A stretch of 64,000 nucleotides of DNA from assembly GCA_036426205.1 (NCBI GenBank), contig CM071570.1, positions 5,637,562 through 5,701,561 on the forward strand, given 5' to 3'. Source of the DNA: Ascaphus truei (lineage: Eukaryota; Chordata; Amphibia; Anura; Ascaphidae). This document shows, one piece after another, positions 6,403 through 57,425 of this stretch (its first letter is position 1; each line of letters opens with the position of its first letter). The notes below the pieces were generated by a model, which made no database searches, was not told where the DNA came from, and saw nothing but the letters and a program-made list of their open reading frames with translations. The position numbers and the translations under genes are program-made.

Positions 6403-9400
6403 GATCTAAATGTATTGATTAAATCCTTCACAGTTTTAAAGCTACTGTATGTATTGCAGGTCTCTCCAGCACTGACGGGTTTATGCTGGTAGTATGTCTA
6501 ACATCCGTGTTTTATTGATGCACAGTCACCCATATTTCTCTCTCTGATTTGAGACTTTAGCCTATTTGTTGCATTTAATCAAACAGAATATCTAACTGTG
6601 GGGAAAGGAAGTCTCCAAAGTTTTGAAACAAAAAAAAACATACCATCCAATCCTGGAACTTTCCCCGATTCAACTGCCTTGTTAATTCACCTCCCCCCAT
6701 CATTTTACGATGTGTTTTAAGTTAGAGAGGAAGAAAGAAAATTGACATTTTTAACTTAGAGGGGAGAAGTCTCTAGTCATGTGTAAAGAAGTTTTTTCTT
6801 TCATATAAAGTACTAGCCAGATTTGAATTTGCATGAGAACAAAAACACGGTTAGCTTTTCCTACAAATAAGACCCCAACTTAGTGTAAGCAAAAAAAATA
6901 GGCATGAAATAAATTTTGCGTGGGGACCTAAACATAACGATTCGACAGGTGGAGCAGATGGTGGGTCCATTCGTAATTTAATTAAATGATCTCAACATGT
7001 GTGTACACACGTTAAATGGCGCCGGTCGCATTAGCGCCCAATATAGAGCTGGATTAATGGCTGCTACGTTAGTTAAATATACATAGAGGGCATTAATGTT
7101 ATATTGTAATGCTTTCTGATTTAAACCATACCATACTTACCATCACTTGCTTCTTCATAAGCAAATCAGATAACCGCTACCTACTCTCCTGGGATTTGGG
7201 GGATTTAAAATATAAAGGGTAATTGAAGGTTTCCGTATTGAAACCCAAGGTAACCATTAATTGTTACTTCATCAGAAAATAACATAACATCTACTCCCTG
7301 GGGATGATTCTTGTGCCAATAGTATTATTAGGAGCTAATTGAAAGATGTTGATGTTTCTTTATTGAAACTGTAGTTGAACATTGTACGGTCAGTAACTCC
7401 TGAGACCCAACAGGTGGAAACAGCTGTCCGAGGAGCTGTGCTGCACATGCACTTCTGTAACCCAGGCTGTGCTTTAAACGCTGTGTACAACGGCAGGCAG
7501 AAGCTTAAATGGATCCATGGTAAAGTGGATAAGACCCAAAAAGTGACGTACTATGGACTAGATCCACAAAGCTTCATCAAATGAGGGCTCATAAAAGGTG
7601 AGGAGGGAGGAAGGAGAGATAGAAAGAGAGGGGAGGGGGGGGGGGCAGGGAGAGGGAGACAGTTTATTTTAGTAAAGGACCCATTGACTGTGAACATACC
7701 AGTGATACCTGGGAAATATGGTAATCGGAATATGCAAAATATATTGAAATTATATGGATTGGCATAGGTATCTCTCCGCCTGTTATAAAAATGAGTATTT
7801 TTGGAGGTATGTAGGTCAATGGGTACTTTAAATAAAATAGTACACCCCCCTCCCCCCCACACTTGTTTTCTCCTTTCTCTCTATCTCTCCCCCTCTCTCC
7901 ATAAAGCCCCTTTTCAGGTTTTGGATTGGAGTAATGCCAAGTTTAGGTCTAACTTAACTAATGTAATGTTAAGTTGCTGCGTTAATCTTAATAGACTTTA
8001 GTGGATATGTAATGTTAGGTTAAATGCCTCATTTGTATCTCAGAATTACTAATGGCCATTATAGTTAACGCAATGCTGCTTACGAGAAAAAAAAAACGAC
8101 TTTGTTACGTTATGTTATTGCCCTTTGAAGATATGCGGTTATGTTACCGTCACGTTAAACCACCAACCAGAGATCAGCCTATGAGTATACATTTGCATGT
8201 CAGCTTCAGACACTCGGATACTCTTCTACCAGATGACTACAACGTCTGAGCTATCACCCCATCCTGGTAAACCCAATGCAACCTCAGTGATTCGAGTTTG
8301 GAAATCTACATCAGTCAAGATAAGTTTTCCCACACAATTCACATCTGCAGCAGTTATAGGACCCGAGAGTCCGCTCAGAATCTTCCTCGCTTAACCTGCC
8401 ACTCTCTTTTTTTTCCGTGGAAGAAGAGGGACAATAGCCAGCCTTAAAGATAACCAGTATTAAAGAAAGCAAATGCCCTTTCCAAAAGATAGGTCAGATT
8501 TACATGCTGTACTATTGCAGAAGATATCTAATTTATGGAGATCAAATTGAGAAACAATAGCATAAACAATGTTAGCACACTGAATCATTGGCACGCACAT
8601 CTGTTGACTAATGTGTGTTTATGCCAGCTGGCTCAACAACAGTACATTTTTCCTTTCATCGAAGGAAAAAGAAGCACTCTAAGCTTTAGTTAAATAATCA
8701 TTTTCTTTTAAGAAAGTTAATGAATTTAGTAGCATACAGTACTTATTAGTGTTCTTTCTAAGCTAAATCTGCATTATCCCTTATAAACCCCCAAGTGCAT
8801 GACGCACTTTGTACCCTGATGGAGCACTAGCAGAGTATCTGCGATAAGTAACTTGTAAGTTACTAAATAAATACAAAGACAACTTTGTTACCGTTTTAGG
8901 TCCTGGTACTCATTTATGTAAAATCCAACACAGCTGAGGATTAAAGATGTGTAAACTATCCAAAATCTAGAACATGCGTTTTCCCCCATTTAGCCAAGCT
9001 TCAGGACCAAGGCCAAATTAGTACACTTTCAGTAAAAAAAATTGCCAACCGGCTAAACACAGAATGTGTGCCCTATTTATCATCAACGCATTAAGTGAAT
9101 CTAGCCATTTTAAATCATTTTGCAAGCAAATCTAGTGATTCTCGAGAATTTAGCAAATTAGCATTTAAGTGAAATTGCAATGCACATTGACGTAATACTT
9201 GGCAAATTGTTTGTGAACTCTGAAAAGGTTGAGGCTTTTTTTATTTTTATTTTTTCCTTTATAAAGGGCACATTTTGCTGGTTCATGACCTTGGCCGAGT
9301 GTTTCAGACAACTCCACCCCGATGTCTATTCTTGCGGCTTCCTATTGGCCCGTGAAACACATGAGATTTGGCGCCCATATTGATTTCCCGGTGATAGCTT

Positions 9401-16386: not shown

Positions 16387-16506
16387 GTAACATTGTTAGT
16401 CTAAGGAATGGCACCACTTGCTTCAGAAGTAGGACATACGTGTTACAACATGGGCCCTGAACACGCGCCACAAACGTCATTGAGAGAAAGCTGTGCGTTT
16501 ACTTAC

Positions 16507-16562
16507 TAATTCTGTTCCTGACTTTATTCACTTCTTCTCCAAGAGATTTTGCTTCAGCATAT
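16507..16562 (-). CDS. KIF6: KIF6 internal exon (56 nt)
   Basis: The exon reads from 16,562 down to 16,507. The acceptor is excellent (a pyrimidine-rich ccattttatttttattag) and the donor is gtaagt. Exactly one frame is open, beginning with one base that completes a codon: YAEAKSLGEEVNKVRNRI, then one base of the next codon. The preceding exon at 23,652-23,547 ends with two bases (AG), so the join makes AGA (Arg) and reads LLKQRYAEAKSLG. This matches, from memory, the coiled-coil part of the C-terminal half of vertebrate KIF6, a kinesin of motile-cilium and ciliary-motor function. The exon sits in a 440-bp island between two minisatellites. No later KIF6 exon was recognised to its left. Confidence 0.8.
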
Positions 16563-16830
16563 CTAATAAAAATAAAATGGAAATGTCGAAGTTAATTATT
16601 TTGCAAAAATCTGAAACATTGAAACGAAATCAAATGCAAAGTGTATATACTGTTGTGGCACTATTCAAGTTCCCCCTGTGTGGCACTTGGAGCGGGTGGA
16701 GTGCGGCTGTGATCGCAGCCAAACACCATCACAGCCCAGAAAACAGTGTTTCCCAGAAGGATTAATGCAGAGGGGTCACCGCTTCTGAATTGGAATCCTG
16801 CAGCGTTAATCCTATCGGACCGCCAGCAGT

Positions 16831-18958
16831 CTGTAAGAGCTGCGCAGAGAGAGCAAAGAGAAGCTGCCCCTCTGTCTGTGTCTCCCCGCACAGCTCTTAC
16901 AGCAGAGTTAGAGAGAAGCGGTCATCTCTCTGTGTCTCCCCGACAGCGCTTACAGCAGAGAGATCAGAGAGAAGCGGCCCTCTCTCTGTGTCTCCCGCAC
17001 AGCGGCTTACAGCAGAGAGATCAGAGAGAAGCGGCCCCCTAGCTGTGTCCCCGAAAGGTCTTACAGAGAGAGACAGAGAGAAGGCGGCCCTCTCTCGTGT
17101 CTCCCGCACAGGTCTTACAGCAGAGAGAGCAGAGAGAAGCGGTCCCTCTCTCTGTGTCTACCGCACAGCTCTTACAGCAGAGAGATCAGAGGAAGCGGCC
17201 CCTCTTCTGTGTCTCCCCGCCCACAGGTCTTACAGCAGAGAGATCAGAGAGAAGCGGTCCCTCTCTGTGTCTCCCCGCACAGCGCTTACAGCAGAGAGCA
17301 GAGAGAAGCGGTCCCTCTCTGTGTCTCCCCGCACAGGTCTACAGCAAGAGAGATCAGAGAAACAGGCGGTCCCTCTCTTGTGTCTCCCCGCGCAGCTCTT
17401 ACAGCAGAGAGATCAGAGAGAAGCGGTCCACTCTCTCTGTGTTCAACCGCAAGCTCTTACGCAGAGAGTTCAGAGAGAGAAGCGGTCCCTCTCTGTGTCT
17501 CCCCACACAGCTCTTACAGCAGAGAGAAGTGGCTCCTGTTCTGTGTCCACCACGCACAGCTCTTACAGCAGAGAGATCAGAGAGAAGCAGTCCCTCTCTC
17601 TGTTTTCTCCCGCACAGCTCTTAATGCCAGAGAGATCAGAGAGAAGCGGGTCCCTCCTCTGTGTCTCCCGCACAGCTCTTACAGCAGAGAGATCAGAGAG
17701 AAGCGGTCCCTCTCTGTGTATCTCCCGCACAGCTCTTACAGCAGAGTTCAGAGAGAAGCAGCAGCCCCTCTCTGTGGTATCCCCGCACAGCGTTACAGCA
17801 GAGGAGACAGAGAGCAAGTGTCCTGTCTCTGTGTCTCCCGCCACAGCTCTTACAGCAGCGGTCAGAGAGAAGCAGCCCCCTCTCTGGTGTCCCCGCCAAG
17901 CTCTTACAGCAGAGAGATCAGAGAAAGAGAAGCGGGTCCTCTCTCTGTCTCCCCGCACAGCTTACGCAGAGAGAAGAGAGGGAAGCGCCCCTCTCTCTGT
18001 GTCTCCGCACAGCTCTTACAGCAGAGAGAGCAGAGAGAAGCGGCCCTCTCTCTGTGTCTCCCGCCAGCTCTTACAAGCAGAGAGCAGCGGGGGTCCCTCT
18101 CTGTGTCTCCCCGCACAGCTTACAGAAGAGAGAGCAGAAGAGAAAGCGGCCCCTCTCTCTGTGTCTCCCCGCACAGCTCTTACAGCAGAGAGAGCAGAGA
18201 GAAGCGGTCCCTCTCTCTGTGTCTCCCCGCACAGCTCTTACATCAGAGAGATCAGAGAGAAGCGGTCCCCCTCTCTGTGTCTCCCCACACAGCTCTTAGA
18301 GCAGAGAGACGTGGTCCCTCTCTGTGTGTCTCCCCACACAGCTCTTAGGCCCGGGCCATAGAGGGGTGAGGCGATCCGAGCCGCGCTGACGCTGAGGCTC
18401 GCCTGCTGAAATCTGGGCGATTTCATGCCCATACAGGCGAGCCAGCGGGCGCGATCGGAGCCGGGGGGAGGTGGTTGGAGGCGGGGCAGTGACGTCGCTG
18501 GGCCAATCGCCCGCGACGCACTGACGTCGATGTCACGGCGCCGACGTCACGGCGCCGTGACGTCGACACTGCTGTGCTGTGATTGGAGGTTTTCAGCCGA
18601 CAGCGCGCTGAAAAACAGCTTGGCGCTCGGCTGAAACCTCCATCTCGTTAGCACGCCTGCGGACGCTCGCGTGAGCCCCCTCTCAAGGCATCCTCATTGA
18701 GGATGCAGGGGCTCAGCGAGGAGCGTCCGCATGCCTCAGCACGGCCTCTCCGTCTATGGACTCGGCCTTACAGCAGAGAGATCAGAGAGAAGCGGTCCCT
18801 CTCTCTGTGTGTCCCCGCACAGCTCTTACAGCAGAGAGAGAAGCGGCCCCTCTCTCTGTGTCTCCCCGCACAGCTCTTACAGCAGAGAGATCAGAGAGTA
18901 GCGGCCCCTCCCTCTGTATCCCCGCACAGCTCTTACAGCAGAGAAATCAGAGAGACAA
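16831..18958 (+). repeat. 58-bp minisatellite, interrupted by a MITE
   Basis: About 29 units containing CTCTCTGTGTCTCCCCGCAC, AGCTCTTACAGCAGAGAGAT and CAGAGAGAAGCGGTCCCT. The array runs 16,831-18,347 and resumes 18,768-18,958 after a 420-bp insertion. Units between 17,000 and 18,120 carry many single-base indels; those at 18,140-18,300 and after the insertion are clean. Long open frames here (up to 523 codons, plus strand) are read-through of the array and are not genes. Confidence 0.95.
18348..18767. mobile_element. 420-bp Harbinger-type MITE inserted in the minisatellite
   Basis: The ends GGCCCGGGCCATAGAGG and (inverted) GGCCGAGTCCATAGACGG are imperfect terminal repeats, flanked on both sides by TTA. 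In the array unit this site reads CAGCTC-TTA-CAGCAG, so the element duplicated the 3-bp TTA already in the unit. TWA duplications are typical of PIF/Harbinger. The interior is GC-rich and carries palindromic clusters around ACGTCACGGCGCC. Non-coding. Related ends occur at 24,042-24,401 and 57,426-57,765. Confidence 0.8.
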
Positions 18959-34268: not shown

Positions 34269-36704
34269 CCCAGATAGATTATATTTACACAGCATTTTAT
34301 CCAGGGTCTCTGACACAAAACCAGGATATTTCCCAGTGGGAAATGGTGCGATGTATGTCCTCATTGCCGTAGTGCTCAATGACACTATGCAGCCTTCCCT
34401 GGCAGGTTCCCGCCGGCGTTCTCCCTGCATCTTCCCGTGCTGCCCATTGTATTTGGTAAGAAATGTAAAATGCTTTATAGTTTTGCTGTCTGTAGTCCAA
34501 AATAATCCTTGACCAAGGTGACAGCGGGCACATTAAGTTGGATATGTCACTGGCATACGTTTATAAACTGCAGTATACTCCACGTATACATGAACAATCT
34601 CCCATTTGTCTAATTTGGTGTGCAGAAACGATTTTTTCTTTTCCTAACTTAAGCAGCAGAAGAATGAATGAGAAAACAAGGATAACGTGGCAGCGAAATA
34701 GAACGAGACATTTGCAGTGGAGCCAACATATCTGTGATACACTAACAGTATTACACGTGGTTATTTTCATACTTTTCAATGGATCACAAAAACCTGGGCA
34801 AATATAGTTCATATATGTAACCCGAGATCATGACTCAAGCAAAGATTAAGGTACAAAAATTCAGCAGCCACTATATTTTTCATTACGGAAAATATCGCCC
34901 CACTTCTCAGACCAGCATATAAAATGCTGTCTAATTCCCTGAAGATAATATTCAGAGTTTGTAAATTGCACTTTACCTGATTAGAGATATGGTACCAAAC
35001 ACCCAGGAAATTCATAACAAAACGATGTTACCATACAAAAAGAATGGGTAATTCCTTTCAAACACGTAATAGTATGAACAAGGAGGGTTATGGGTCAGTG
35101 ACTTCTCATTCTGCCATCTTTTTGCTCTGGCATCAGCTTAGAAACAATGTCTAAACAGTTTCACCAAACATTGTATGAAATAGATAGCGTTTGGATTCTT
35201 AAATGTACATTTCTGTATCTATACATTTGAGGGAGAGACCTAAAAAAAAATTGTTTTTTTTTTAAATGACTTGCTCGTTCTTTACTCCTCATCAAATGTA
35301 AGACATCTGTTCATTAAATACTCTTAACACGTCTAAAAAATAATAATAATAGAACTGCTAGAAACAAGATGTTCAAATAAAAGCAAATGCTGCACAAGAT
35401 GAGAAATGTAGGAGGGTGGGAGACGGAACGGGGAATATGTGCAGAAGCCTATTACCTTAGAGGACCTAGGGGATGATTCCAAGTACAACAAACAGGATGG
35501 GCTGTCCCCATCACAACTGAACCATTTTGGCGTAACTGGCAATGCCTCACGGTAGAATAACACAAAATAGTCAGAGCTGAAGTGCCTTGGCACCACCGTG
35601 GGAGGAAATCTGCTCAGTGTCTTGATGCACTGTTACCTCTTTCTTATAAGTGGTACAATATTTCTTCTTGAAGAGAACAAACGGTCTGAAACGCATGTTA
35701 GAACACATGGGGCAACTTATCACCGCCCCCAACGTCTTGTTGTCTGCTACCAGTTATAGCTGACAGATGTTCAAATAGAAGAAGATAGTTTGAAAATGTA
35801 TTTTCTACAGATGATTCTTTAAAAAAATCATTTCCAAGCTTGGAAGCAGTCGGATGCTCCACTGTGTTATATGTGGACTACAGACAATGCCTCAGTTTTA
35901 TAATATTTTTACCTTGCATTTGTCTTTTACGCACAATAGGAAAGTACCCTTGAATGGTGGGTATTGTGTCCACTATCAATGAAAGGAACCCATATATTTT
36001 CAGGCATAATATTGTGTATGTGAGCACTTATCACTTATTGCAACGTCCCTCCCCTCCCCCCACAAAATAAATATAAATATATGATGTCTTTACTGTGTGT
36101 GCGTTTCTAAAATATACTGTAATATCAAGCAACCCACTAAACACTTAGATTAATATTTGGGACTCCAAACCTTCCATTGTTGGGGTTACCCCTGTATGTT
36201 AAAACATCTGATCAATCACAAAGGGTGATCATGAAGTACCCACCTCCTATAGCATACAGCCGGTTTAGCGCAGCGAGGAGGAATAATGCTCCTTGTGAGG
36301 GCCAGAACGGTAAGGTAACCTCACACAATCTAAACGTAGTAAAGAAGTAAAACTGGGTGCAAACCAAATAAGACACAATGTCCCTTAAATTACACAAATC
36401 TGATAAAACCACCAAGGGAGGGATCATTTAAAATCCCACACCATACATAACCCATCTAAATGGATTAGTATTTTTGGAAGGATGGTGATCACCTTCTAAT
36501 GGTTTAAGTTCCCCAGCCACTACTTCCAGGTGATCTAATGGCAAGGTACTGTGTAAAATACATGTATTGTAAGTTTGCAAGTCAGGTTGTCTTTCTCCAT
36601 GAAAACTAAAGAGAGACGCAGGAGGATTTCAGCCTGGAGAAGGAAAAAGAATTATTCAATTTGACATTTGGACTTGCCTGGACTGGGGTAACCCTGGTGT
36701 GGTG
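34269..36704. other. 2.4 kb without recognised features
   Basis: A minus-strand frame at 35,596-35,440 ends in a gtaata donor but has a weak acceptor and an unrelated peptide. Another at 36,640 has a strong acceptor (ttctttttccttctccag) but no donor. Neither is called. Sequence is AT-rich elsewhere. Confidence 0.35.
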
Positions 36705-36931
36705 GGTGAGCTTGGCATACCATGCTGTGGTCAAGCTTGGCATACCATACGGTGGGCAAGCTTGGCATACCATACGGTGGGCAGGCTTGGCATACCATAC
36801 GGTGGGCAAGCTTGGCATACCATGCTGTGTGCAAGCTTGGCATACCATACGATGGGCAAGCTTGGCATGCCATACGGTGGGCAAGCTTGGCATACCATAC
36901 AGTGGGCAAGCTTGGCATGCCATACGGTGGG
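36705..36931 (+). repeat. 25-bp minisatellite (CAAGCTTGGCATACCATACGGTGGG)-like
   Basis: About nine units with few substitutions (ATACGG/ATGCTG/ATACGA/ATACAG variants). Because the period is not a multiple of three, several frames stay open; they are not genes. It runs straight into the fold-back MITE. Confidence 0.95.
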
Positions 36932-37222
36932 GGGGCTCAACTCCAGTCCTCAAGCCCCCCAAGCAGGTCAGGTTTTCAGGATATCCCCGTTTCAGCACAG
37001 GTGGCTCAATCGGAGGCTGAGTCAAGGACTGACATATTCAGGCTTCAGTCTTTGACTGAGCCTCGATTGAGCCACCTGTGCTGAAGTAGGGACTGATTGA
37101 GCCACATGTGCTGAAGTAGGGACTGATTGAGCCACCTGTGCTGAAGCTGGGATATCCTGAATACCTGACCTGTTGGTGGGGGGGGGGAGGGGGTTGAGGA
37201 TTGGAGTTGAGCACGCCTGCTC
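36932..37222. mobile_element. Fold-back MITE with a partially expanded stem
   Basis: The left arm (CTCAACTCCAGTCCTCAAG...CAGGTCAGGTTTTCAGGATATCC) pairs with the right arm (GGATATCCTGAATACCTGACCTG...GAGGATTGGAGTTGAG). The right stem segment ACTGATTGAGCCACCTGTGC is present three times in tandem near 37,050-37,142. Confidence 0.8.
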
Positions 37223-37439
37223 TAACTAATAGGCTGAAGTCAGTCGCATTTGTGATCAAAAATAGAGATGAAAGTGCTCAAGACGGCAAATAATGTAAAT
37301 GCCTAAAAAGTCCCCGAGTCCCCTGAGAGATTGTAACTGAATACGAGTAATCAAGTATTCATATAACTATCTGTAACAAAATGTGCTGGTTTTTGAAGTT
37401 GACTAAGGAGTTAAATAATTATGATTTTACATTACGGAG

Positions 37440-37740
37440 ACTGAGACTCTGATTGAGCAACCCGTGCTGAAGCTGGGACTGATTGAGCCACCTGTCCTGA
37501 AGCTGGGACAGATTGAGCCACCTGTGCTGAAGCTGGGACTGATTGAGCCACCTGTGCTGAAGCAGGGACTGATTGAGCCACCTGTGCTGAAGCTGGGACT
37601 GATTGAGCCACCTGTGCGGAAGCTGGGACTGATTGAGCCACCTGTGCTGAAGCTGGGACTGATTGAGCCACCTGTGCTGAAGCTGGGACTGATTGAGCCA
37701 CCTGTGCTGAAGCAGGGACTGATTGAGCCACCTGTGCTGA
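37440..37740 (+). repeat. 30-bp minisatellite derived from the MITE stem
   Basis: Ten units of GCTGGGACTGATTGAGCCAC-CTGTGCTGAA, nearly identical, with GCAGGG variants. The unit is the stem sequence of the MITE ending 220 bp upstream. 30 bp is a multiple of three, so both strands stay open (LGLIEPPVLK; AQVAQSVPAS), without gene context. Confidence 0.95.
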
Positions 37741-40606
37741 CAACGTTTACGATATTTTACACGACAAACTGTCACCGGAGTAGACAGAATAAAGGGTGAA
37801 GAGACGGGATAGCAAAGTCGCCTCTTTCTATGGAAATGTGCCGTTCGGGTGAAAGATACACAGACGTTTCTGGGAGGCCGCTCCGGTATCTCCGCCTACT
37901 ATATAAAAGGAACAGACGAGCGCTTCAGCACGGGGTCCCGTTTTATTTCTGTCAGAACAGTGCCTCTGTGAGGAACACAGAATATGGCCCCGAGCCTACG
38001 TGACCTAATACCCATACAAATTAGCTGCTAAATATAACAGGATCAACAATTGCTTTAATGTTTTGTACTGTTAATCTTCATCTAATGCTGAACTATATAT
38101 GGCAACAAACACATAAACTGAAGACAAAAGCCTCGAAGGCTAGTGGGCTGAGTCATCAAACCTTATTTGACAAAAGCATAACACGAACAGCCGTATTCAG
38201 CCTTATCCCAAACCAAAGCACCAGGCCGGTATTCCTCGGTAGCGTTGCAGTGTTCGAGGGCCGTACATGTACATAGAATTTGCAGGCATTATAAGTCCCT
38301 GTCCTGAAGCGGATGGTTCAGCAGCACAGTGACTCGTCCACAGTCACCAGAAGCGGTCACTGGATCTAAAATATATATTCAATAAACTATAAATTCAGTG
38401 TAAAGAACTCGCATGACTAATATGGTTAGTTATCGTAGGGGATGATGCCAACTAATGACATCGACCTTTGCAAGGCACGCGCTGGTGAACATCACTACGT
38501 GCGTCTCTCCACGGCTCTTCAGAAGGATTCTCCGTGACTTCTTAAACGGAAGCGATGATCATAGCGAGCGGAATGACAGCTTCGATGCACAGTACATACT
38601 GTATGTAACCAGCCTCCGCGTGCCTGCTGCACCCGCGGCACAGAACTCGCGGCTTCTCCCGGCAGCGAGGAATTCTCTGGGGGGTGTGGGGGTCCGTTTG
38701 GCAGAAGGGACCCCCCCCCCCCCGCAGGCAGCCGTGGCTGTTTGCTTTTCTTCCCGCAGCTTCAAGGGATAGTAAGTCTGGCTGCATCTGTATGTAAAAC
38801 AGTATGATTGGAATAAACATGTAATGATGATCTGTAAAATGAACGACTTCTCATGGGATCGGTACCAGAAGTCGCTCACTGCATTTTTATGTTTGGTCTT
38901 AGCGCCACTAATCTTGTGACTGAACACTGGCTGGGATTGGCATTAAAGGGAGCTACTGTAAGTGCATTTTAGGCTATGCTGATTTTTCATTTAATGCCGC
39001 TTAAGTTGGACATAAAAGTTATTTATTCAGCAATCCCTCCTTAGCACATGACGAATGCAGAGTATTTATATTGAAACTAACCTCGCTTCATAATATCACA
39101 AGTTAGAGATCTACTTACTGTATGACTCAAGAGCAAATTGAAACATGTATACTCGAGTGGCAGCAATCCATTCAATTTATACCGCACATGGTATTATTTT
39201 GCTATGCTTTTTATTTCTCCGAGCAGCAATAACGATGCATCACATTTATTTTTGTGGTTCAGGGACAGACAATAAGACGGGGTTAAAATATGACAGAGGT
39301 GAACGGAGAGTGATACAGATGGGGTTTGCTTGCCAATGACATACTGTACAAGTGAAGGGTTAGGACTCATAACATGGAATCAAAGATTATATACAGTAGA
39401 TGCTCAAAAATGTGCATCATGGTGTTTAACACGTAGTATTGCTTTATTCTTGCATAACATTGGCAGGATAGTTCATTCTTACAGACACAATGTAAATAAT
39501 TCTGGTACCAGATGCACAACATAAGCCAGGAATTCTGTAAGTGAAAAATGGCAAAATAATTATTATATCTCATTATATACAGTAGTTTTACTAACGAATG
39601 CACAATTGTACAAAGCAGAATACAAACAGAGCGAGGTGCCTACATTTACAGTGCATAAGCCACACAACCTCTCCTATTCCCCAAGCGAAGAACTTTATAT
39701 ACAGGCATTACAGCACAGTAACTATTTCTACTAAATATACTACTGTATCTAATCTGTTTCTGTTTGTATTTAGAATGCCCGCGTATTTATAGTCTTTCTA
39801 GATCTAAAAAAGAGAGTTAAGGAAGGAAGGGCAGCTGTAATAAGTGGGTTGACATAGACGCACTAAGCCAAACTGTAGCATGGCAGGTTTGGCACAGGCT
39901 GGGAGTAATGGATACAAGGGAAAACTTAAACCCACAAGAGCCTTTACCAGACCCACCCAGCAGGGCTACCACACCTACATAAATAAAGAGGAGCCATGCC
40001 TTGTAGTGCCAGAAATCACACATTTTACATAGCGTAGCTCCGGACAAACAGGATACAGGTCACAGACCGCGTCGCGCAGTTTGCTCTAAGGGATGGACAT
40101 TAAAGGCATGTAGGCTTTTTACTTCTTGGAAACTTCCTCCCGTGGCAGAGAGAGCGTAGTTAAAGGCATACATGAAAAAAGAAACAGTCCTGCTCCAAAG
40201 AGATATTAGTGCAACATGCAGCTATTATATTGGCATTTGGTAAAAAACCAGACCCAGCTCGTGCTTGGCGGCCACACAAACATTTCACCACATCCGTGAA
40301 CAAAAGTGTGGGAAGGTTCCAACATTCTGCAGAAACAGAAGTGTGCGGATTGTTTGTAATAATGTGGCCGGCTGTAATGCTAACATTCCCTCCGAACGTG
40401 CTCTCCTTATTGCTAATGAATGCCGGATAATGTTACTGAACACTGTGTCAGCAGGTACTGTACACTAGATAGCTGATTGTACACTGACGTTCAAATGGCT
40501 GAATCATCGCAGACTGCATTCATTCTCTTGTACGGTATATTAACATACGCCCCTGGTGAAGCCGCAGTACAACATTTCCCACCCACCCCCTGTTTTTTTA
40601 TTTGTA
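37741..40606. other. 2.9 kb without recognised features
   Basis: No exon, RNA gene or repeat with a partner in the window was seen. A run of C at 38,710-38,722 lies in a locally GC-rich patch (38,600-38,760) whose open frames look fortuitous. Confidence 0.35.
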
Positions 40607-41362: not shown

Positions 41363-41533
41363 AATATATATATATATACACAGTGGTCGACAAATCACCA
41401 AAAAATCTACTCGCCGAGCAAAATAATCTACTCGCCGCCTAGTACCACACGTGTGCTGCTTGGGCCAATAGGAGCTCGCCACGATGTTAAATCCACTGGC
41501 CCGGGGCGTGCAGATGTATTGGTTTGTCGAACA

Positions 41534-41592
<59 letters not shown>
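41322..41592. repeat. Two (TA)n microsatellites flanking a short MITE
   Basis: TA runs at 41,322-41,378 and 41,537-41,592. Confidence 0.9.
41381..41536. mobile_element. 156-bp MITE inserted in a TA microsatellite
   Basis: The left end CAGTGGTCGACAAATC and right end GGTTTGTCGAACACTG are inverted repeats. CAGTG-type ends and a TA-rich target suggest Tc1/mariner mobilisation. Confidence 0.6.
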
Positions 41593-41594
<2 letters not shown>

Positions 41595-41605
41595 AATATA
41601 ACTGT

Positions 41606-41876
41606 ATGCTCATCTGCATGTCTTAGGCAGGTCTGCAACCCCACCTTTCCCCATTATCACCCAGCATACAGCACTTCCACTGCAGCAAGGGATTCTGGGA
41701 AATGACATGCAAATGAGCAATGTGTCACTACGTTGCCTCTAATAAACCCTTTTAAACTCGGTTCCCTATAGGCTTAAGCTTGCTGCATGGTACCCACAGC
41801 TTTGAGCACAGCCCACAGACAGCTGTTTCGACCTTGATGGGTCTCATCAGTGTGGGGTTGATTTTACATGTATATA
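41606..41876 (-). mobile_element. Hammerhead-bearing repeat, copy 1
   Basis: Shares GCATGTCTTAG.CA.GTCTGCA, CCATTATCACC, CTTCCACTGC.GCAAGGGAT and GACATGCAAATGAGCA with 48,128-48,500, in the same order. It carries a hammerhead motif on the minus strand. There is no coding frame. Confidence 0.75.
41812..41857 (-). ncRNA. Canonical hammerhead ribozyme motif (type I, minimal stem III)
   Basis: Reading 41,857 to 41,812: CCCCACA (stem I), CTGATGA (invariant core, rc of 41,844-41,850), GACC-CATCAA-GGTC (4-bp stem II with 6-nt loop), GAAA (core), CAGCTG (self-complementary stem III), TC completing a GTC cleavage triplet, then TGTGGG, which pairs with CCCACA. All invariant positions are present. Hammerheads with such tiny stem III are known from Penelope-like elements and other retroelements, where they are thought to work as dimers. 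Self-cleavage would occur after the C at 41,818. Confidence 0.8.
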
Positions 41877-44255: not shown

Positions 44256-45040
44256 ATTCTGGTGTGCAGCTAAAATAGTGGGAGTAGAATTGCACAATAA
44301 TATACATGTTCAATTAATCATTGTAAGCACTTAGCAAAGACAACAGATTTACTTTAAATATTAGAGCAATTTAAACTGCACAGTACTCTGTAAAACTTGC
44401 AATGAAGTTGTTTTTGGCTTAACAAGTAACCAGTCTCTGTTCTGTGCTATCCCTCTCCGAGGAACAGTACATGCTTCACATCTTGGGAATGTACGAGCAA
44501 AAAAAGCTTATTCTTCCAAACGGTTTTCTCCTTCATTTCTTTTCCCTTATGGGGGAGATGTGGCAAAGATAAGCAACATATTTTAATAGTCAGTCTTCCA
44601 TCTCAGAGATTTGTGTGCTGCAATTATGTAATAGGAATGTGATTAAATGATATATATATATAATAATATAGAGATAATCTATAGAGATATATAGCTAGAT
44701 AGATATATATATATACATATACACACACACACACACACAACAAAAGACGGGGTGCCCAATGCTACATCCAATTGACAAAACATATATGGTAATAAGTATA
44801 AAGTTTAAATACTTAAATAATAATTACTTGGTTATTTAGTTAAACCTTTTGGCCAAAGCGTTGTAAGCCTGCATACCAAACGTCAAGGTATAACCAAAAA
44901 TGCAGGTCCTACACTACACAGTGAACCCTTCCTTTTACCTCTGTATGAGGGGAAAGAACCATAGTAAGGCCTGTTCAATGATGTGGTGGGTGTAGGAGTT
45001 TGAGCTAGCTGGGAATGTGTGTGTGTATATATATATATAT
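44256..45040. other. Unassigned with microsatellites
   Basis: Contains an AT/GATA and CA microsatellite at 44,649-44,738 and a TG/TA run at 45,017-45,041. No gene seen. Confidence 0.5.
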
Positions 45041-45200
45041 ACATGTAGTGGTATCAGTACCGTGTTAGCCGAGCTTCAATAATCAAAAAATAAATAGATG
45101 ATACCGTTCTGTGGCTAACGAAATGCTTTTATTTGTGCGAGCTGTCGGAGATTTTATTATCTCTTTCCGTTGGCGATTGTTACCCTGGAAATTATTATGT
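45041..45200 (-). mobile_element. Diverged repeat related to the 45.56-kb element
   Basis: Contains ACCGTGTTAGCC and GATACCGTTCTGTGGCTAAC, parallel to CCGTGTTAGTCC and GATACCTTTTTTATTGGACTAAC at 45.57-45.65 kb. A hairpin (GAGAT/ATCTC) next to CGACAGC sits where that element has its CTCTCGAAAGC motif. Confidence 0.4.
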
Positions 45201-45290: not shown

Positions 45291-45351
45291 CTTACTTAAG
45301 GTTATGGTGGGTTTTAAAAAAAGTGACAAAAACCCTCCACAGTAAAGCATG

Positions 45352-45466
45352 ATAGCAACTGTAATATTACTGTATATTCATGTGCATGTCTTAGACAGGT
45401 GAAAGACAGGGTTGCAGACCTGTCTAAGACATGCAAATGAATTTACAGTAATATTTACAGTTGCTA
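45352..45466. mobile_element. Snap-back derivative of the hammerhead-bearing repeat family
   Basis: Arms 45,352-45,400 and 45,418-45,466 are nearly perfect inverted repeats (TAGCAACTGTAATATTACTG ... CATGTCTTAGACAGGT) around a 17-bp spacer. The inner part (GCATGTCTTAGACAGGT) is the 5' sequence of the 41.6- and 48.2-kb repeats. Confidence 0.75.
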
Positions 45467-45468
45467 TA

Positions 45469-45479
45469 TATATATATAT

Positions 45480-45550
<71 letters not shown>
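45469..45550. repeat. (TAGA)n tetranucleotide microsatellite
   Basis: About 17 TAGA units after a short TA run; uninterrupted. Confidence 0.97.
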
Positions 45551-45551
<1 letters not shown>

Positions 45552-45559
45552 CTATATAT

Positions 45560-46090
45560 CAGAAAAATAGCCGTGTTAGTCCAGTTGCGATAGTGCAGAA
45601 TAAATGAGTTCTTCAGTATTAGGTGATACCTTTTTTATTGGACTAACAATTTTGTCATAGGACAAGCTTTCGAGAGTTTTTCCTCTCTTCTTCAGGTCAG
45701 CAATACTGATATACAAAGGATTCAATGGCTAAAACAGTGTAGAGAAAGGGAAAAAAAACAGATATGTACTGTAGATAAGGTAGGGTGTTAAAAGTGTTTG
45801 AAGCCAGGGGAAGATGACAAGGAGGAAAGGTGGGGAGTGGGAGGGTGCTGGGGGGGGGGGGGGGTAGGGGGTAGAAGAGAAAGTGTGGATAGGAAGGAGG
45901 GCAAAGCAGGATGATAATGATAGAAACAATTTTGATAGGGGGGTGTGAGGAAACCATGTCCGCATTATTAAGTGCCTTTGGTTTGGTGTCAAAGGAGTCT
46001 TATCATTCTGAGTTCAATGTTTGTTCGTCTTGGGTGTGTTTAAACTATTCATTGAGGATCGCAACTGGACTAACACGGTTCTATTTTGAC
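45560..46090. mobile_element. 530-bp element with 29-bp inverted ends
   Basis: The left end AAAAATAGCCGTGTTAGTCC-AGTTGCGAT (45,563-45,591) is complementary to ATCGCAACTGGACTAACACG-GTTCTATTTT (46,058-46,087). The interior holds a CTGAAGA/GAAA hairpin on the minus strand (45,695-45,661) and a G-rich tract near 45,840-45,865. No transposase frame. Class not assigned. Confidence 0.7.
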
Positions 46091-48127: not shown

Positions 48128-48500
48128 GGATTAGGTGGGTGAAAAAGGTGACTGAAACCCCCCACCATATAGCGTACAAAATAGCACATGAAAATATATT
48201 ACTTGTGAGCACATTCACATGTCTTAGACAAGTCTGCAGCCCTGCTTTTCACCATTATCACCAAGCATACAGTGCTTCCACTGCCGCAAGGGATTCTGGG
48301 AAATTACATGCAAATGAGCACACAGTGCCACCTTTTGCCTTAAATATATTATTACATGGAACCCTTAAGCCAATGCTCACTGTTTTAAACACACATTTTA
48401 AACACAGCCTGGGATCAGATGCAAAGCCAGTAAACCCACTCACAGACAGGTGTTTCAACATTTTGGGTCTCATCAATGTGAGGTTGGTTGTACTGGCTTT
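48128..48500 (-). mobile_element. Hammerhead-bearing repeat, copy 2
   Basis: Same motif order as 41,606-41,876. It retains an extra outer segment (GGTGGGTGAAAAAGGTGACT) also visible in decayed form before the snap-back at 45.3 kb. Ends at the Tc1 sequence near 48,505. Confidence 0.7.
48439..48482 (-). ncRNA. Hammerhead ribozyme motif, diverged copy
   Basis: From 48,482: CTCACA, TTGATGA (first core base C to T), GAC-loop-GTT stem II, GAAA, CACCTG, TC, TGTGAG. The outer stem CTCACA/TGTGAG stays fully paired although both strands differ from CCCACA/TGTGGG at 41.8 kb. The core change and broken stem III predict loss of activity. Confidence 0.6.
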
Positions 48501-48504
48501 GCAA

Positions 48505-51500
48505 TTCAAGACTTGGAACAATGTCCTTTGGACAGACAAGACCAAAGTGGATATGTTTGGCCATAATGCACAGCGCCACGTTTGGCGAAAAACCAAACAA
48601 AGCATATCAGCACAAACACCTCATACCAACTGTCAAGCATGGTGGTGGAGGGGTGATGATTTTGGCTTGTTTTTGCAGCCAGAGGACCTGGGAACCTTGC
48701 AGTCATTGAGCCGACCATGAACTCCTCTGCATACCAAAGTAATCTAGAGTCAAATGTGAGACCATCTGTCCGACAGCTAAAGCTTGGCCGAAATTGGGTC
48801 ATGCAACAGGACAATGATCCCAAGCACACCAGTAAATCTACAACAGAGTGGCTGAAAAAGAAAAGAATCAAGGTGTTACAATGGCCCAGTCAAAGTACAG
48901 ATCTCAACCTGATTGAAATGCTGTAGCGGGACCTTAAGAGAGCTGTGCATAAACAAATGCCCACAAACCTCGATGAACAGAGCAACGTTGTAAAGAAGAG
49001 TGGTCCAAAACTCCTCCACAATGATGTGAGAGACTGATAAAATCATACAGAAAGCGATTACTTCAAGTTATTGCTGCTAAAGGTGGTTCTACAAGCTATT
49101 GAATCATAAGGTGTACTTAGTTTTTCGCACATGTCTTCTCCATTTTGGCTTTATTTTTGTTAAATAAATCATGACACTGTGTAATATGTCATGTGTTGTT
49201 GTTCATCGATGGAACTGCATTAGGCAGTGAGGCCATTGTAACAGGAGGTTTTTATGATACAGTTAGACTACAGTTTGACTAGAGTGACGGGGGACTGGTC
49301 TTCTGCACACACTTTTACTCAAGACATTAATCGGTAAGCTATTCAGATCACACTTGATCCCCTGCTTGTTACCTGCATAGTTTACCCCCCCCCCCACCCT
49401 TTACATTACAACTTCTTTCATCACTCAGCCTCTCCAAACTAACTCACAATACACTTAACCTTGAATTGACCCTACATTTGCAATTGGCAGCAAAACACTT
49501 GACAAGGTACGCGGCCCCACCCTGCTGTTTAGTCTGGCACACACTCACTCTGCTCACGCAGCCTCCTTGCAGCACTGCTACCTCTGTCATCATGAACCTG
49601 CTATTGTCTTCTATACTTTTTTCTTTTTCTTCTCCTGGCTCACTGAGTATGTACTTCCCTCTATCCACTACAACTCCTCCACCTTGCCCACAAACAACAT
49701 CACCATACACCCTGACTACTCAAAAGCCTTGCACTATCTACTGAATGTGGTGGAGACTCTAAAAAACCAGAACACCAACCCACCGCACACCTCAAATGAA
49801 AAACCACAATTTTACAACTTGCTCAACAACTACACCCAATTTCCTACTCATAACTTTCCTCTCTAGCAGGTGATGTTGAAACTAACCAGTGTCCCCACAT
49901 GTCACTCTGGTCCCATTGCCCGAGAATTCCACCTTTAAATTCCAAAGGTCTATCTGCGCCCATATAACATCCGGAAGCCTGCTGCCCAAATGGATGAACT
50001 AAGTGGCTGGGGCCTTATGCATAAAACCTAAGCCATCGATTCTACAGAAACATGCTATCCTCTAAACCCCTCGATGGCCATATCGCCATTCAGGGATACG
50101 CCATTTTTTGGAGAGATAGGTCAAAGAGGATGGAGGGGTGTTATTTATTTGCATTCAGGACACTCTACAATTTACCACTGTTACATTGCCACCAATCCAC
50201 CCTCTTTTGAAACTCTAGTTGGCAAAATCTCTCCTCCCTTTTTCTATAAGCCCATCTGCTTGCTGCATCTATCCTACCGCCGCCCTAAGCCTCCTCTACA
50301 ATCCTTGACTGATATCACCCAATTTCTTTTGCCTCCATTTCCTCTCTGAGAGATAGTGAGCTTTAGTTCTAGGGATTTCAACTTCAATTGGCTTGACCCT
50401 AAAACCACAAAATCCAGAACACTCAAGTCACTTACCCTATCACAACAACTCATTTCCCAACCCAACGAATAAACCTGAATCCATAAACCATTCCTTGCTA
50501 GACTGGATTCTTCCTCAAACCCAGCAGAATCCAATCCTCTGGCATCCTTCCTGATATTTTCCAGTGGACCATGCAATATGTACTGTGTAAGGAAAATTAA
50601 AACGCACCGCCATTCAAGCCCAAAGTTCTCCTCACTAAACATTTAAAAACTTTAACCACCCACAACAGTTTCTGGATGACCTTACAACTGCCCTGGCACA
50701 GAATCGTTTATTTCCCGACCTGATTCGCGTCGACTATTTTCCAATCCGAATTCTTAACTCTGCGATACCCATGCTCCACTACGCAAAATAAGGGTACGGT
50801 GGCCCCACCTTCCTGGGTTTACACACTGACCTTATGCACTGCTAACCATCAGGGATTTGCCTTGTGGAAAAACTACAAAGTGAACTGGCACTACCAAGGA
50901 TCTCATCAATCCTACAGATGCCTCGGAACGTTGCACAAGGCAAACAAGGTATGCAAACGCACAATATTACTCTGACAATCTCCACCAATACATCCAACAC
51001 CCAGCTAACTTCTGGAAGTTATCACAAAGTATTCCAGCCTCCTAACCATCAACAACCAAGTAATATCACTAAGGGGGATTTACTCTGACAACCCCACGTA
51101 CATGCAAATGCATTCAATGATTATTTGTTGGGTGTGCCACTAACTTATTAGCGAACGCAGCACAAACCCCAAAACATGAATCTCATCCTGGGAGTATCCC
51201 TACAGTCCCACCCCCTCCCAACACTGCCCACTTTAATTTATCCCAGTATCTGAAGAGGAGATTACACAAGCGCTCCTCAAACTAAATAAGCAGACCATGT
51301 GGACTCCGATCTTACTACAATCTAGGTTCTACGATTGGTGCCACATCCTTCCAAACCAATTTGCGTCCATGTCAACTCTATCCTGTTCTGCAGGCCATAT
51401 CCTAAGACCTGGAAAACGCCAGAGTGTCCCAATCTTCAAAAGTGGGGACAAAAAAACACTGTCTCAAACTACGGCCACTACACCTCTCCTTTCTTTCCCA

Positions 51501-53430: not shown

Positions 53431-54655
53431 AGCAGAGTACATATAGGCCCTACGCAGTGCTGGAGGAGGGCCTCCCTAGATGTCCGAAAAAGGTAGTTGG
53501 GACACACAGGGTCGCTGATAGGGTGGGATAAATGGGTTTGGTATTCCAGGCCTGGAGATAGAAGAGGCAATGCCAACTGTAAGTAACCTTCCAAGGTCAC
53601 TCCCAGCATCAGCAAGGTCAGGGCCTCCCACACTGGACAAACAGACCCTGGACGTGCCTCCACCCCCCCTAATGCTTAACGAGTGGCCTGGGGCCAAGGT
53701 AGTCGTCGGAGTGTTGGGCCCCAATAACCCTGTTGGCAGTCCTTCTTTATATAGGGAGAGACGTATTGCAGTGACTCTAAACACTCTCCTAGAAATACAA
53801 CAGGCACATCAAAAATTAGGGAAAAAACTATAAATTTAGCAGATACACATGCATTTTAAAAGTTTAAAGATTACATTAATATGGGTTGGTTATTCCTGAA
53901 ACATAAGCGTTGATATAGTCTAATTACTAAAATCTCCGGTCTGGAGCAAAACTTTTGCACAAAAATATCAAAGAACCGGAATCCCACTGAAAGCAATGGG
54001 GGAGGGGCGGAGGGGCTTAGGGGCGGTTCCTTTGGCAAATCAGATAACATCACATTGTTCCTACTTGTTTTTAGTTTGGCAAGTAAAAAGTTGTTTTGTT
54101 GGTCCACAATTGAACCATTGCATCAGATAATACAAACATGCAGAATTTTTCTGGGTCATTACAAAAGTGGTGATAATTCATCTGCAATGATCATTGATGA
54201 AAATGGTCTAACATCACCGTGTATAGCCCTCGTGATTTCTTGCTCTAGAGGAGTCCTGTTTAAACGGGCTGTAAAGAGCTACGCAGGAACTTAACACTGT
54301 ATTTTAAAAAACATTATAAACTTATAACAAAGACACTTAGGACGGCATCTGCTAAATTTGACAAAGTGCTGCAAACTGCTCCAAATCCTTTTGGGCTTGT
54401 GATGGTTTTCTGCAGGTTTGGGTTACATTTAAATGCATCAGGCAGACTGAACACAGTGATACGCTTGGCTCAGGATTAGTACTGTATGCTCCACTGGATC
54501 TTCAAGCCAGGCCCGCCATGGCTGACTTAGAAGAAACTTCCCTACTGATGAAGACTGAATACGTGAAGACATCACTTGGAACTGAAAAAAAGTAGCTCGC
54601 TCAATACAAGTTCCAACCCCAACTTTCATGTGCAATTAGTGTTCCATGGATTTAT
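53431..54655. other. Unassigned
   Basis: A plus-strand frame at 53,570-53,833 is open for 87 codons with no recognised family. A minus-strand frame near 54,600 follows a fair acceptor (ctactttttttcag) but the peptide fits nothing I know. Neither is claimed as a gene. Confidence 0.35.
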
Positions 54656-54660
54656 AAGAC

Positions 54661-56620
54661 ACTAGCTGAGAGACCCGGCGTTGCCCGGGATGTGAACCGT
54701 GAATAAGTATGTGTAAATGTTGTATGATAATGTATATAGCAAAGTTTTAATGTCATGTGAATGTTATGTAATATTTGTGAAAAGTCAATTAGCAATGTGT
54801 TGGTAATTGGTTTTATTGAAAGGAACAGCGGAGTGGGTGTGTGAGGTGTGGTGGTAGTGGAGGGTGTGCGTTGGTGTGCATGTTTTTGTGGTGTGTTGTG
54901 CGTTGTACGGAAGGGGTGTGTGGTGTTTGAGGTGCAAGGGAAGGGGGTGCATAGACGTGTCAATCTGCATTGTCTTGAGTGTTGTGTGTGTGGCACCACG
55001 GAGAAGTAGAGTTGTGTTTTCAGCGTTGAGTGTGTTGTGGGGGTAGGGGTGTGTTTAATTGTTGTTGTGTGTGTTGTCTCAGCACAGGAGGGGTGTGTGA
55101 GGGTGTGTTGTGTGTGTGAGTTGAGTGTTGTGTGGGTGTGTGTGACTGTTGTGTGGGTATTGTGTGTTGGTGTGCTGACAGTTTTTGCAAGAAATGACAC
55201 AGACGGCAGATGTGTGAGGGCTGTTGTGGCAGCGGAGGGTGTGTGTTGGTGCACACGTTTGGGGGGTTGGCGGATTGAGGTGCAAGGGGAGAGGTGTTCC
55301 AGAGGTGTAAATGTGGATTGTGTTGAGTGTAGTGTGTTTGTGGCAGCACAGTGAAGGGGAGGTGTGTTTGGTGGGGTGAGGATGTGTTGTTGTGTTTGTG
55401 CGTCCGTGTGTGTGTTGTAGGGGAGTTGTGTGGAATATGGTGCAGCATGCGTTGTGGTGTTTGTGGTGTGGGGGGAAGGTAGGGGTGTGTGGCAGTCTTG
55501 TTTTGTGTGGCGTATCAGCACAGGAGGGTTGGGTGTGTGTGTGAGGCGTTCTGGCTGAGGGTGTGTGTGTGCGCGTGTTGCGTGTGTGAGTGCGTGAGTG
55601 AGGTGGTGTGTGGGTGACGGCGTGTGTTGTGGCTGAGGGCGTGTGTGTGTGCGTGTGGTGCGTGACTGAGTGTGTGTGTGTGTGTGTGGTAAGTGAGGGC
55701 GTGGCATAGGGCGTGTGGTGTGGGAGATGTTTTGTGAATGTTGGTTGTGTGTGTCTGAATAGTGTGTGTATGGGTGTTGTGTGTGATAGTTGCTTGTGTG
55801 TGGGTGAGTGTGGGGTGTGTAGGTGGATGAGTGAGTGTGGGGTGGGTGTGTGATGTGGCAGAATACTGTGTGTATGTGTGTTGTGTGTGATTCTTGCTTG
55901 TGTGTGTTGTGGGTGGTTGAGTGTGGGGTGTGTGGGTGGATGAGTGAGTGTGTTCTGGGTGTGTGAGTGTGTGGGTGAGTGTTGGGTGGGTGAGTGTGTG
56001 GTGGGTAGGTGATTGAGGGTGGGTTGGGTGTGTGTGTGTTGTGTTGTGGTGTGGGTGAGTGTGTTTTCTGTAGTGTTGTGTGTGTGTGTGTGTGGGTGAG
56101 TGTGGGTGAGTGTTGTGTGTGTTATGTGGGTGTGGGTGTGTTGTGTGTGTGAGTTGAGTGTTGTGTGATTGTTGTGTGGGTGTGTGTGAGTGTTGTGTGT
56201 GTGTTGTGTGTGGGTGTGCTGAAAGTTAGTGCAAGAAATGACACAGACGGCAGAATGTGGATTGTGTTGTGAATCTATTTTATTGGACCGAAGAGCTGAT
56301 TTCGTGTGTGAGGTGTGGTGGCAGCGGAGGGTGTGTGTTGGTGCGCACATTTGGGGTGGTGGCGGGTTGAGGTGCAAGGGGAGGGGTGTTGCAGACTTGT
56401 AAATCAGCATGGTGTTCAGTGTAGTGTGTTTGTGGCAGCACGGTGAAGGGGATGTGTGTTTGGGGCGGGAAGGGTGTGTTGTTGTGTTTTGGCGTCCGTG
56501 TGGGTGTGTGTTAAAGCGTTGTGTAGGGGAGGTGGGTTGAATATGCCGCAGCATGCGTTGTGGTGTGGGGGGTAGGTGTGTGGAAGTGTTGTTTTGTGTG
56601 GTGTATCAGCAGAGGAGGGT

Positions 56621-56651
<31 letters not shown>

Positions 56652-56985
56652 ACGTGTGTAGTGGGTGAGGGCGTGTGCCGTGGCTTAGGGCATGTGTGTG
56701 TTGGTGTGTTGCGTGTTTGAGTGCGTGTGTGTGAGGTGGTGTGTGTGGTGCGTGGCTGAGGGCGCGTGGCGTGTTTGAGGGCGCGTTTGTGTGCGCGTGG
56801 CTGAGGGTGTGTGTGGTGCGTGAGTGCGTGGGTAAGGGTGTGTGGCGTGGCTGAGGGCATGTTGCGTGGCTGAGGGCGTGAGGCGTGGCAGAGGGGTTGT
56901 GCGGGCACGTGATTGAGGGTGCGTGTGGGTGGCTGTTGCGTGTGTGGTTTAGTGTTGTGTGTGTGTGTTTGTGTGTAAGGGACAC
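54661..56985 (+). repeat. 2.3-kb GT-rich higher-order repeat
   Basis: After CTAGCTGAGAGACCCGGCGT the block is almost pure G/T on this strand. A longer module recurs three times (about 54,845, 55,215 and 56,305): GTGGCAGCGGAGGGTGTG, then TTGAGGTGCAAGGGGA, then GTGTTTGTGGCAGCAC. Two are preceded by GCAAGAAATGACACAGACGG. Overlapping minus-strand frames of 351, 491 and 189 codons are Thr/His/Pro low-complexity translations of the array, in different frames over the same DNA, and are not genes. Confidence 0.9.
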
Positions 56986-57425
56986 AGTGATCCTATATTG
57001 TTTTATGAAGCAGACATGTGTCAGGAGGTGTTGTTAAATGGAATGAGTGCTATGTTATTTTGTGAAGCATTGATATAGCATGAGGTTGAAGGTGAGGTGT
57101 GTTGGGCTACAGGAGGTGTTGGTGTGTTTGCAGGATACGTGTGGCGATGTGGGTGGTGGGGGGGGGAGGGGCACGGTGGGGTTTGTGGGGTGGTGAGGGC
57201 TAGGGGACTGTTTTGAGGTGGCTGGCTAAGGTAGTGTTGGGGGGGGGCATGCTCCTAATGCAAGTGAATAATAATTCAATTTATTAAAAATAGGACAAGC
57301 ATTGTCCATCCAGGAATAAGAAAAGAATGCGAAAACTGCATATTTGGGAAATAGGCCACATAGATACAGTGTGACACTGCTGGATTAAACTCCAATGGAG
57401 GAGGAAGATAAGGTGAACAGCCTAA
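56986..57425. other. Unassigned
   Basis: G/T-biased sequence fading into ordinary DNA; no gene seen. Confidence 0.4.

Follow-up and report, generated by a model that had tools for sequence, protein, structure and literature searches.

The locus described here raises, in a countable form, the question of the route by which animal retrozymes return to DNA: how does a short repeat that bears a ribozyme motif come to be inserted, many times over, in the genome of Ascaphus truei? The window (that is, the whole 64-kb stretch of DNA that was analysed) holds on its minus strand a motif that an earlier note, made from the letters, had described as a canonical hammerhead ribozyme in an interspersed, non-coding repeat. 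In the reading that we prefer, and consider likely, this motif belongs to a degraded copy of an animal retrozyme of about 403 bp, whose RNA would be processed by the ribozyme and inserted by target priming at (TA)n, most likely by a Penelope-like enzyme.

The hammerhead motif and its extended stem I

In the 64-kb window, the type I hammerhead model of Rfam (RF00163, release 15) matches positions 41812-41856 of the minus strand over model positions 1-45 with 35.9 bits (E 2.7e-5, or E 6.7e-7 for a search of 1.6 kb), the gathering score being 34 bits; no other Rfam match in the window reaches gathering level. Matches to MIR810, the pestivirus 3'UTR, RUF, snoR11 and mir, all overlapping (TA)n stretches and far under their gathering scores, were rejected. 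The motif and the copies of its repeat in the window are as follows, with unit positions counted from the first base of CCCACA and the cut placed after 39:

41812..41856, minus strand: core and inner stems of a type I hammerhead ribozyme (from Rfam RF00163 and the sequence), with the predicted cut between 41818 and 41817
41821..41824, minus strand: AGCU, centre of the helix III octamer ACAGCUGU (41819-41826), which pairs between copies in the dimer model
41588..41867, minus strand: retrozyme copy A, 280 bp, truncated in 5' at unit position 393 and with its 3' end at unit position 295
48130..48506, minus strand: retrozyme copy B, of another subfamily, with a full outer stem I and a broken core (TTGATGA)
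7364..7519, plus strand: 5' part of retrozyme copy C, with a decayed hammerhead (CTCCTGA)
45292..45469, both strands: retrozyme copy D, made of a minus-strand piece (45292-45400) and a plus-strand piece (45402-45469), both from the 3' end and placed head to head

On the minus strand, the type I elements CUGANGA, GAAA and UH stand in order together with three stems. Stem I is formed by CCCACA (41856-41851) and TGTGGG (41817-41812); the core comprises CTGATGA (41850-41844) and GAAA (41829-41826), followed by C, AGCT and GTC (41820-41818); stem II consists of GACC and GGTC with the loop CATCAA. Letters, strand and order are all as the earlier note gave them, and the placement of C17 puts the predicted self-cleavage site after 41818, the very base that had been proposed. 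The claim that chance is very unlikely stands for the motif taken with its stems (E 2.7e-5) but not for the core by itself, for which a loose pattern is expected 0.12 times per shuffled window and was present in 12 of 100 shuffles; since the core pattern is not so rare, the significance of the match rests on the paired stems.

The family ribozyme, as read from the aligned copies, appears to be an extended hammerhead: beyond an internal loop, stem I continues into a second helix, at least 8 of whose 11 outer pairs are kept in 24 of 33 aligned rows. Copy A does not keep these pairs. It starts just outside the inner stem I, and 30 nt are missing after TGTG (with GG on both sides of the break, the copy being otherwise close to the unit of locus L026), so that the 5' truncation and the deletion together account for the loss of the outer helix and its loop. 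Because the Rfam model, with its 45 positions, does not reach the outer helix, this helix provides a test of the fold which is independent of how the loci were picked. The cells of this helix are paired in 80.2% of cases, against 74.8% after shuffling and 20.6-43.0% with the partner strand slid; its covariation score (0.192) was reached by none of 500 shuffles, and its number of cells with both sides changed (19) by 2 of 500. Further pair types are weakly above the shuffles (22 of 500), and the pairs changed on both sides, four in number, show no excess (285 of 500 shuffles reach 4). Two outer pairs switch type (GC 16/CG 6 and UA 9/AU 6), as does a pair of the inner stem I, at columns 39-81 (UA 16/CG 12). 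Drift of the copies without covariation, which the earlier note had named as evidence against a hammerhead, is not what is found: stem I carries compensatory changes.

Helix III, described beforehand as a self-complementary stem of 6 nt, is indeed palindromic, and is better taken as the octamer ACAGCUGU, which as a monomer would form two pairs and a tetraloop. This octamer occurs in 15 of 33 rows, and the octamer is fully self-pairing (G-U included) in 26 of 33. When two copy-A motifs are cofolded, the predicted optimum is the exact double hammerhead (-35.5 kcal/mol), in agreement with the suggestion of a type I ribozyme with a minimal helix III for which dimers may matter; for a single motif another fold is preferred (-15.0 kcal/mol, against -9.8 for the hammerhead fold). 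Energy folding of monomers against shuffles gave z values of -1.01 (copy A), -4.48 (copy B) and 0.30 (copy C), the copy A fold being no better than shuffles and not the hammerhead. In the predicted fold of the closed unit of about 403 nt the motif is not in hammerhead form either, which could mean that the circle is protected or could reflect a weakness of the prediction. These predictions for the monomer and the closed unit count against the preferred reading. The dimer result has a parallel in the newt and axolotl hammerheads, for which passages of PMC7229834 describe weak cleavage by monomers and stronger cleavage by dimers.

A family of tandem, non-coding units

When RF00163 was run against the 2.82-Gb genome, in which the window is C4:5637562-5701561, a first look gave 344,898 candidates; 74 of them were scored, of which 68 match at E <= 10 and 44 pass the gathering score. 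Among 14 control genomes, 11 gave matches at E <= 10 and none over the gathering cut-off; since the controls also match at E <= 10, only the 44 places over the cut-off are counted. The covariance search that had been proposed as a check was thus positive both in the window (35.9 against 34 bits) and at these 44 places. A genome search with RF02276 gave 0 matches and is uninformative, as its control also rang nowhere. The best 30 of the 68 matches, ranked by hammerhead score, were fetched (loci L001-L030), a selection that biases their cores and inner stems and leaves the outer stem and the flanks unselected. All 30 match the repeat unit, each with a hammerhead, and all 30 are matched by an extended covariance model (R1) that they helped to build; CTGANGA is kept in 29 of these loci, picked as they were by hammerhead score, and the core is broken in L016.

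Run over 264 kb including the window, R1 gives six rows for five hammerhead sites, as one site is also matched in antisense. Three of the sites are window copies used in building R1, and the other two, in L037 and L040, are independent of it; copy B, one of those used in the building, scores 101.1 bits. In the same 264 kb, blastn places pieces of the repeat at seven places, several of them inside the window. Extrapolated from this one neighbourhood, the copy number of the family would run into the tens of thousands. When copy A was used as the query of a DNA search, in which 40 of 1343 candidates were scored, the result was 42 rows, ten of them sharing one score (E 5.4e-81). Exact patterns of 31 and 33 bases, which leave out ends elsewhere in the unit, were counted over the genome: junctions from ...TTTGCATAT to (TA) occur 1136 times and read-throughs to ...TTTGCTTTCC 1498 times, with 0 occurrences of either pattern reversed. 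The equal scores and the exact matches suggest a recent spread, and the genome, 264-kb and exact-pattern searches all bear out the description of the repeat as interspersed. Copy B seemingly lies (region 48130-48720) within the decayed frame 48506-48889 of the minus strand, which we take to be a Tc1/mariner-like transposase, and would accordingly be younger than that element.

The unit, as taken from L026, is 403 bp long with 45% GC; when it is tripled, its longest stop-free stretches are of 50 codons (transcript strand) and 91 codons (opposite strand). Two hammerheads are 403 nt apart in L026 and 407 nt apart in L029; L020 carries two of different subfamilies, 580 apart, and L006 also carries two. 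Tandem arrangement was further counted on C1 up to 176 Mb, using 88 of the first 100 listed (TA) rows (of 1136) and the first 100 listed read-throughs (of 1498). Among the matches listed, another copy lies on the same strand at most 1.3 kb upstream of 16 of the 88 (TA)-ended copies, making 17 same-strand pairs against 0.03 expected; the spacing is 398-410 nt in 15 of the pairs. Animal non-LTR retrozymes are characterized by non-coding tandem units of low GC, about 150-450 bp long, that bear a type I hammerhead; units of about 404 bp without a long frame fit this class, and with it the proposal of a short non-autonomous retroelement.

Judged by its sequence, the repeat is better placed among the animal retrozymes than among the Penelope-like elements proper, and it goes beyond known retrozymes in having a preferred internal end, often directly in (TA)n. 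The LTR retrozymes of plants are reportedly non-autonomous, hammerhead-bearing elements with a circular RNA intermediate; the repeat is likewise non-autonomous and hammerhead-bearing, and would share the circular intermediate. Plant retrozymes use, according to passages of PMC7229834, type III hammerheads and LTRs, both of which are absent here. The closest likeness in those passages is to Rtz_331 and Rtz_353 of the axolotl and to newt satellite 2, which have type I hammerheads with a weak palindromic helix III and an extended stem I, in short non-coding tandem units with GC below 50%, very many copies and an expected activity as dimers. The axolotl units measure 330 and 350 bp, against about 403 bp here, and their sequence is taken to differ, a judgement made without comparison to axolotl sequence; internal 3' ends in (TA)n and head-to-head pairs, both seen here, do not appear in the same passages. 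Type I hammerheads in interspersed vertebrate repeats are also described for Xenopus tropicalis in part of PMC3088659, a likeness drawn from their description.

Copy ends, (TA)n and a possible route of insertion

For 32 copies (one chain for each of the 30 loci, plus copies A and B) the ends were mapped onto the unit. In 13 of them the 3' end falls at unit positions 284-297, an interval picked after looking, where 1.1 would be expected if ends were uniform. The other 19 (7 at 256-281, 6 at 343-362 and 6 scattered) count against the preferred reading, and some of the early ones may be alignments that stop in diverged copies. By this mapping, inserted copies tend to end inside the unit, away from the ribozyme cut site. 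The 5' ends are variable and several copies exceed one unit, with 853 nt in L026, 741 in L006, 711 in L029, 599 in L020, 524 in L019, 519 in L030 and 515 in L025 (the 843-nt span of L010 was excluded, being made of two pieces with an insertion between them).

The flanks are rich in (TA)n. Within 20 nt, (TA)5 is found downstream of the 3' end in 8 of the 32 copies and upstream of the 5' end in 4 of them, the background being 0.0026; of 11 copies selected by hand for their closeness to the unit of L026, 8 are followed by (TA)4 (background 0.0055). Copy A itself runs at its 3' end into the (TA)n of 41537-41592; L002 and L026 end in GT-rich runs in place of (TA)n, and poly(A) is absent at the mapped ends. 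Copies also occur as head-to-head pairs: among the matches listed in C1 to 176 Mb, the 3' ends point outward in all 11 inverted pairs, which occupy 10 places, and a head-to-head partner is present in 7 of the 30 loci (L002, L004, L009, L010, L022, L027 and L028) and in the window copy D, whose plus-strand piece runs into (TA)n. One locus of the 30, L019, has a tail-to-tail pair instead, which counts against the preferred reading.

Other insertions were seen beside these ends. About 360 nt (1549-1907) interrupt the retrozyme copy of L010 and end in an A run, apparently a nested retroposed insert. Between (TA)n runs, at 41380-41536 of the window, lies an element of about 157 bp with the inverted ends CAGTGGTCGACAAA and TTTGTCGAACACTG, which resembles a short DNA transposon with a TA target and whose start has a similar counterpart after the (TA)n of the L013 retrozyme. 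Beyond the tandem and the GT-rich flank of L026, at about 2310-2500, stands a sequence that we take to be U2 snRNA-like.

For copies that cross the cut site and exceed one unit from an internal start, a linear, once-cut monomer is excluded as the template, and a circle or an uncut multimer can yield copies of this kind. Target-primed reverse transcription of circular or multimeric RNA, probably by Penelope-like machinery, is the likely route. Tandem genomic copies would be transcribed; the hammerheads of the multimer would cut mainly as dimers, via the palindromic helix III; unit-length RNAs would be closed into circles, or uncut multimers would persist. A retroelement enzyme, most likely Penelope-like, would then cut (TA)n-rich DNA and prime reverse transcription at TA-compatible points within the unit, chiefly at positions 284-297. 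Copying would go on over a varying length, whether round a circle or down a multimer, and priming would often take place from both target strands, giving head-to-head pairs. The ribozyme motif, the family, the tandem unit, the preferred internal 3' end, the (TA)n flanks and the head-to-head pairs can be read off the DNA; from them we infer transcription, cleavage, circles and an enzyme, and any choice between circle and multimer, or between Penelope-like and LINE machinery, is likewise a matter of inference.

A narrower proposal, in which a Penelope-like protein copies a ribozyme-made circle by target priming on both strands at (TA)n microsatellites, is put forward tentatively, as somewhat short of an even chance. 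If it is true, the genome holds thousands of records of rolling reverse transcription on circles, in which entry is at a fixed point, copying exceeds one turn by varying amounts, and double starts lie head to head. In passages of PMC7229834, Cervera and de la Pena hypothesized that Penelope-like elements are a strong candidate for retrozyme mobilisation, on the grounds of type I hammerheads, tandem copies in both and co-occurrence. The insertion record makes this idea testable, turning it into countable predictions that could also be addressed with an existing in vitro system.

Elements that may be of the kind required are found beside the retrozymes. In five of the 30 loci (L004, L006, L025, L029 and L030) an element on the opposite strand, at most about 100 nt downstream, stands tail to tail with the retrozyme; we take these neighbours to be Penelope-like. 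The gap between the two is TA-rich in 4 of the 5 loci and short and AT-rich in L006. In one type of neighbour there is a hammerhead-like core that ends in GAAAGCTTGTC, and in the second type a fainter resemblance to one; most copies show CTAACACGG near the end. The element of L025, separate from the retrozyme and on the opposite strand, has a frame of 162 codons with a GIY-YIG match of 12.7 bits, under the cut-off of 22.6, so that the Penelope-like label is provisional, a point against the preferred reading; when the Penelope-like frame was compared with Pfam and with solved structures, the matches were weak or unrelated. Fragments of both types are present in the window:

45039-45183 and 45550-46087, minus strand: Penelope-like fragments of two types, with 3' ends at TA-rich DNA

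The second fragment has a hammerhead-like core (CTGAAGA...GAAAGCTTGTC), which Rfam does not call, and an inverted head-to-head end piece at 46058-46087.

The retrozyme unit of about 403 nt has no reverse transcriptase or GIY-YIG frame, which sets it apart from Penelope-like elements, and its likeness to them is one of mechanism only, in AT-rich insertion and an internal start of reverse transcription. A purified Penelope-like protein of Anolis cleaves DNA that is rich in AT, extends the two strands and begins reverse transcription within its RNA, at a site not homologous to the cut DNA, and hammerhead mutants left insertion in vitro unaffected (PMC11167929). The ends here look TA-matched, whereas the starts in that system are not target-homologous, a difference that, like the result with the mutants, weighs against the preferred reading. 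The tandem terminal repeats of Penelope-like elements contain type I hammerheads in which helix III is slight (passages of PMC7761336 and PMC6155905); with the repeat they share such hammerheads, tandem copies, AT-rich targets and extension of both strands, and the repeat differs in lacking a frame, in its extended stem I and in its unit of about 404 nt.

Other origins for the ends and for the repeat

The same retrozyme might have been inserted by LINE-type machinery, with the (TA)n as a tail grown from its own ...GCATAT end and the head-to-head pairs as products of twin priming, which in LINE style likewise yields such pairs. The window does contain frames that we take to be LINE-like, a (TA)n tail could start from the 3' end ...TTTGCATAT, and the (TA)n beside copies could indeed be a copied tail, against the preferred reading. 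We nevertheless regard this explanation as unlikely, though the best of the alternatives: 4 of 32 copies have (TA)5 no more than 20 nt from their 5' end as well (background 0.0026), the GT-rich ends of L002 and L026 are those predicted by a choice of target, Penelope-like copies occupy the same TA stretches at several loci, and no poly(A) is seen at mapped ends.

It is less likely still that the hammerhead is a dead relic, inherited in an ordinary repeat and with no part in its recent spread. Loop contacts matter for hammerhead activity, and copy A is without its outer stem I and loop, while the cores of copies B and C and of L016 are broken. Against this stand the ten rows of one score, obtained though only 40 of 1343 candidates were scored, and the 1136 and 1498 exact matches, both pointing to recent spread, as well as the subfamily differences that keep stem I paired by compensation and the CTGANGA intact in 29 of 30 loci, though these were picked by hammerhead score.

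That the repeat is the terminal piece (pseudo-LTR) of a Penelope-like element, and no independent retrozyme, seems very improbable and was rejected. Penelope-like tandem terminal repeats do bear type I hammerheads (same passages of PMC7761336 and PMC6155905), and both kinds of element sit in TA runs here; the units, however, succeed each other at about 404 nt with nothing in between, have no long frame, and find no match in the Penelope-like copies of the same loci, which are of different sequence. A chance resemblance to a hammerhead, for which the 0.12 bare core patterns expected per window could be cited, has next to no probability given the E value with stems and the 44 places over the cut-off, and is ruled out by the independent covariation of the outer helix, whose score none of the 500 shuffles reached.

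Elsewhere in the window, long minisatellite arrays (15281-18361, 36603-37895 and 54652-57033) give long repetitive open frames, in several frames and on both strands.
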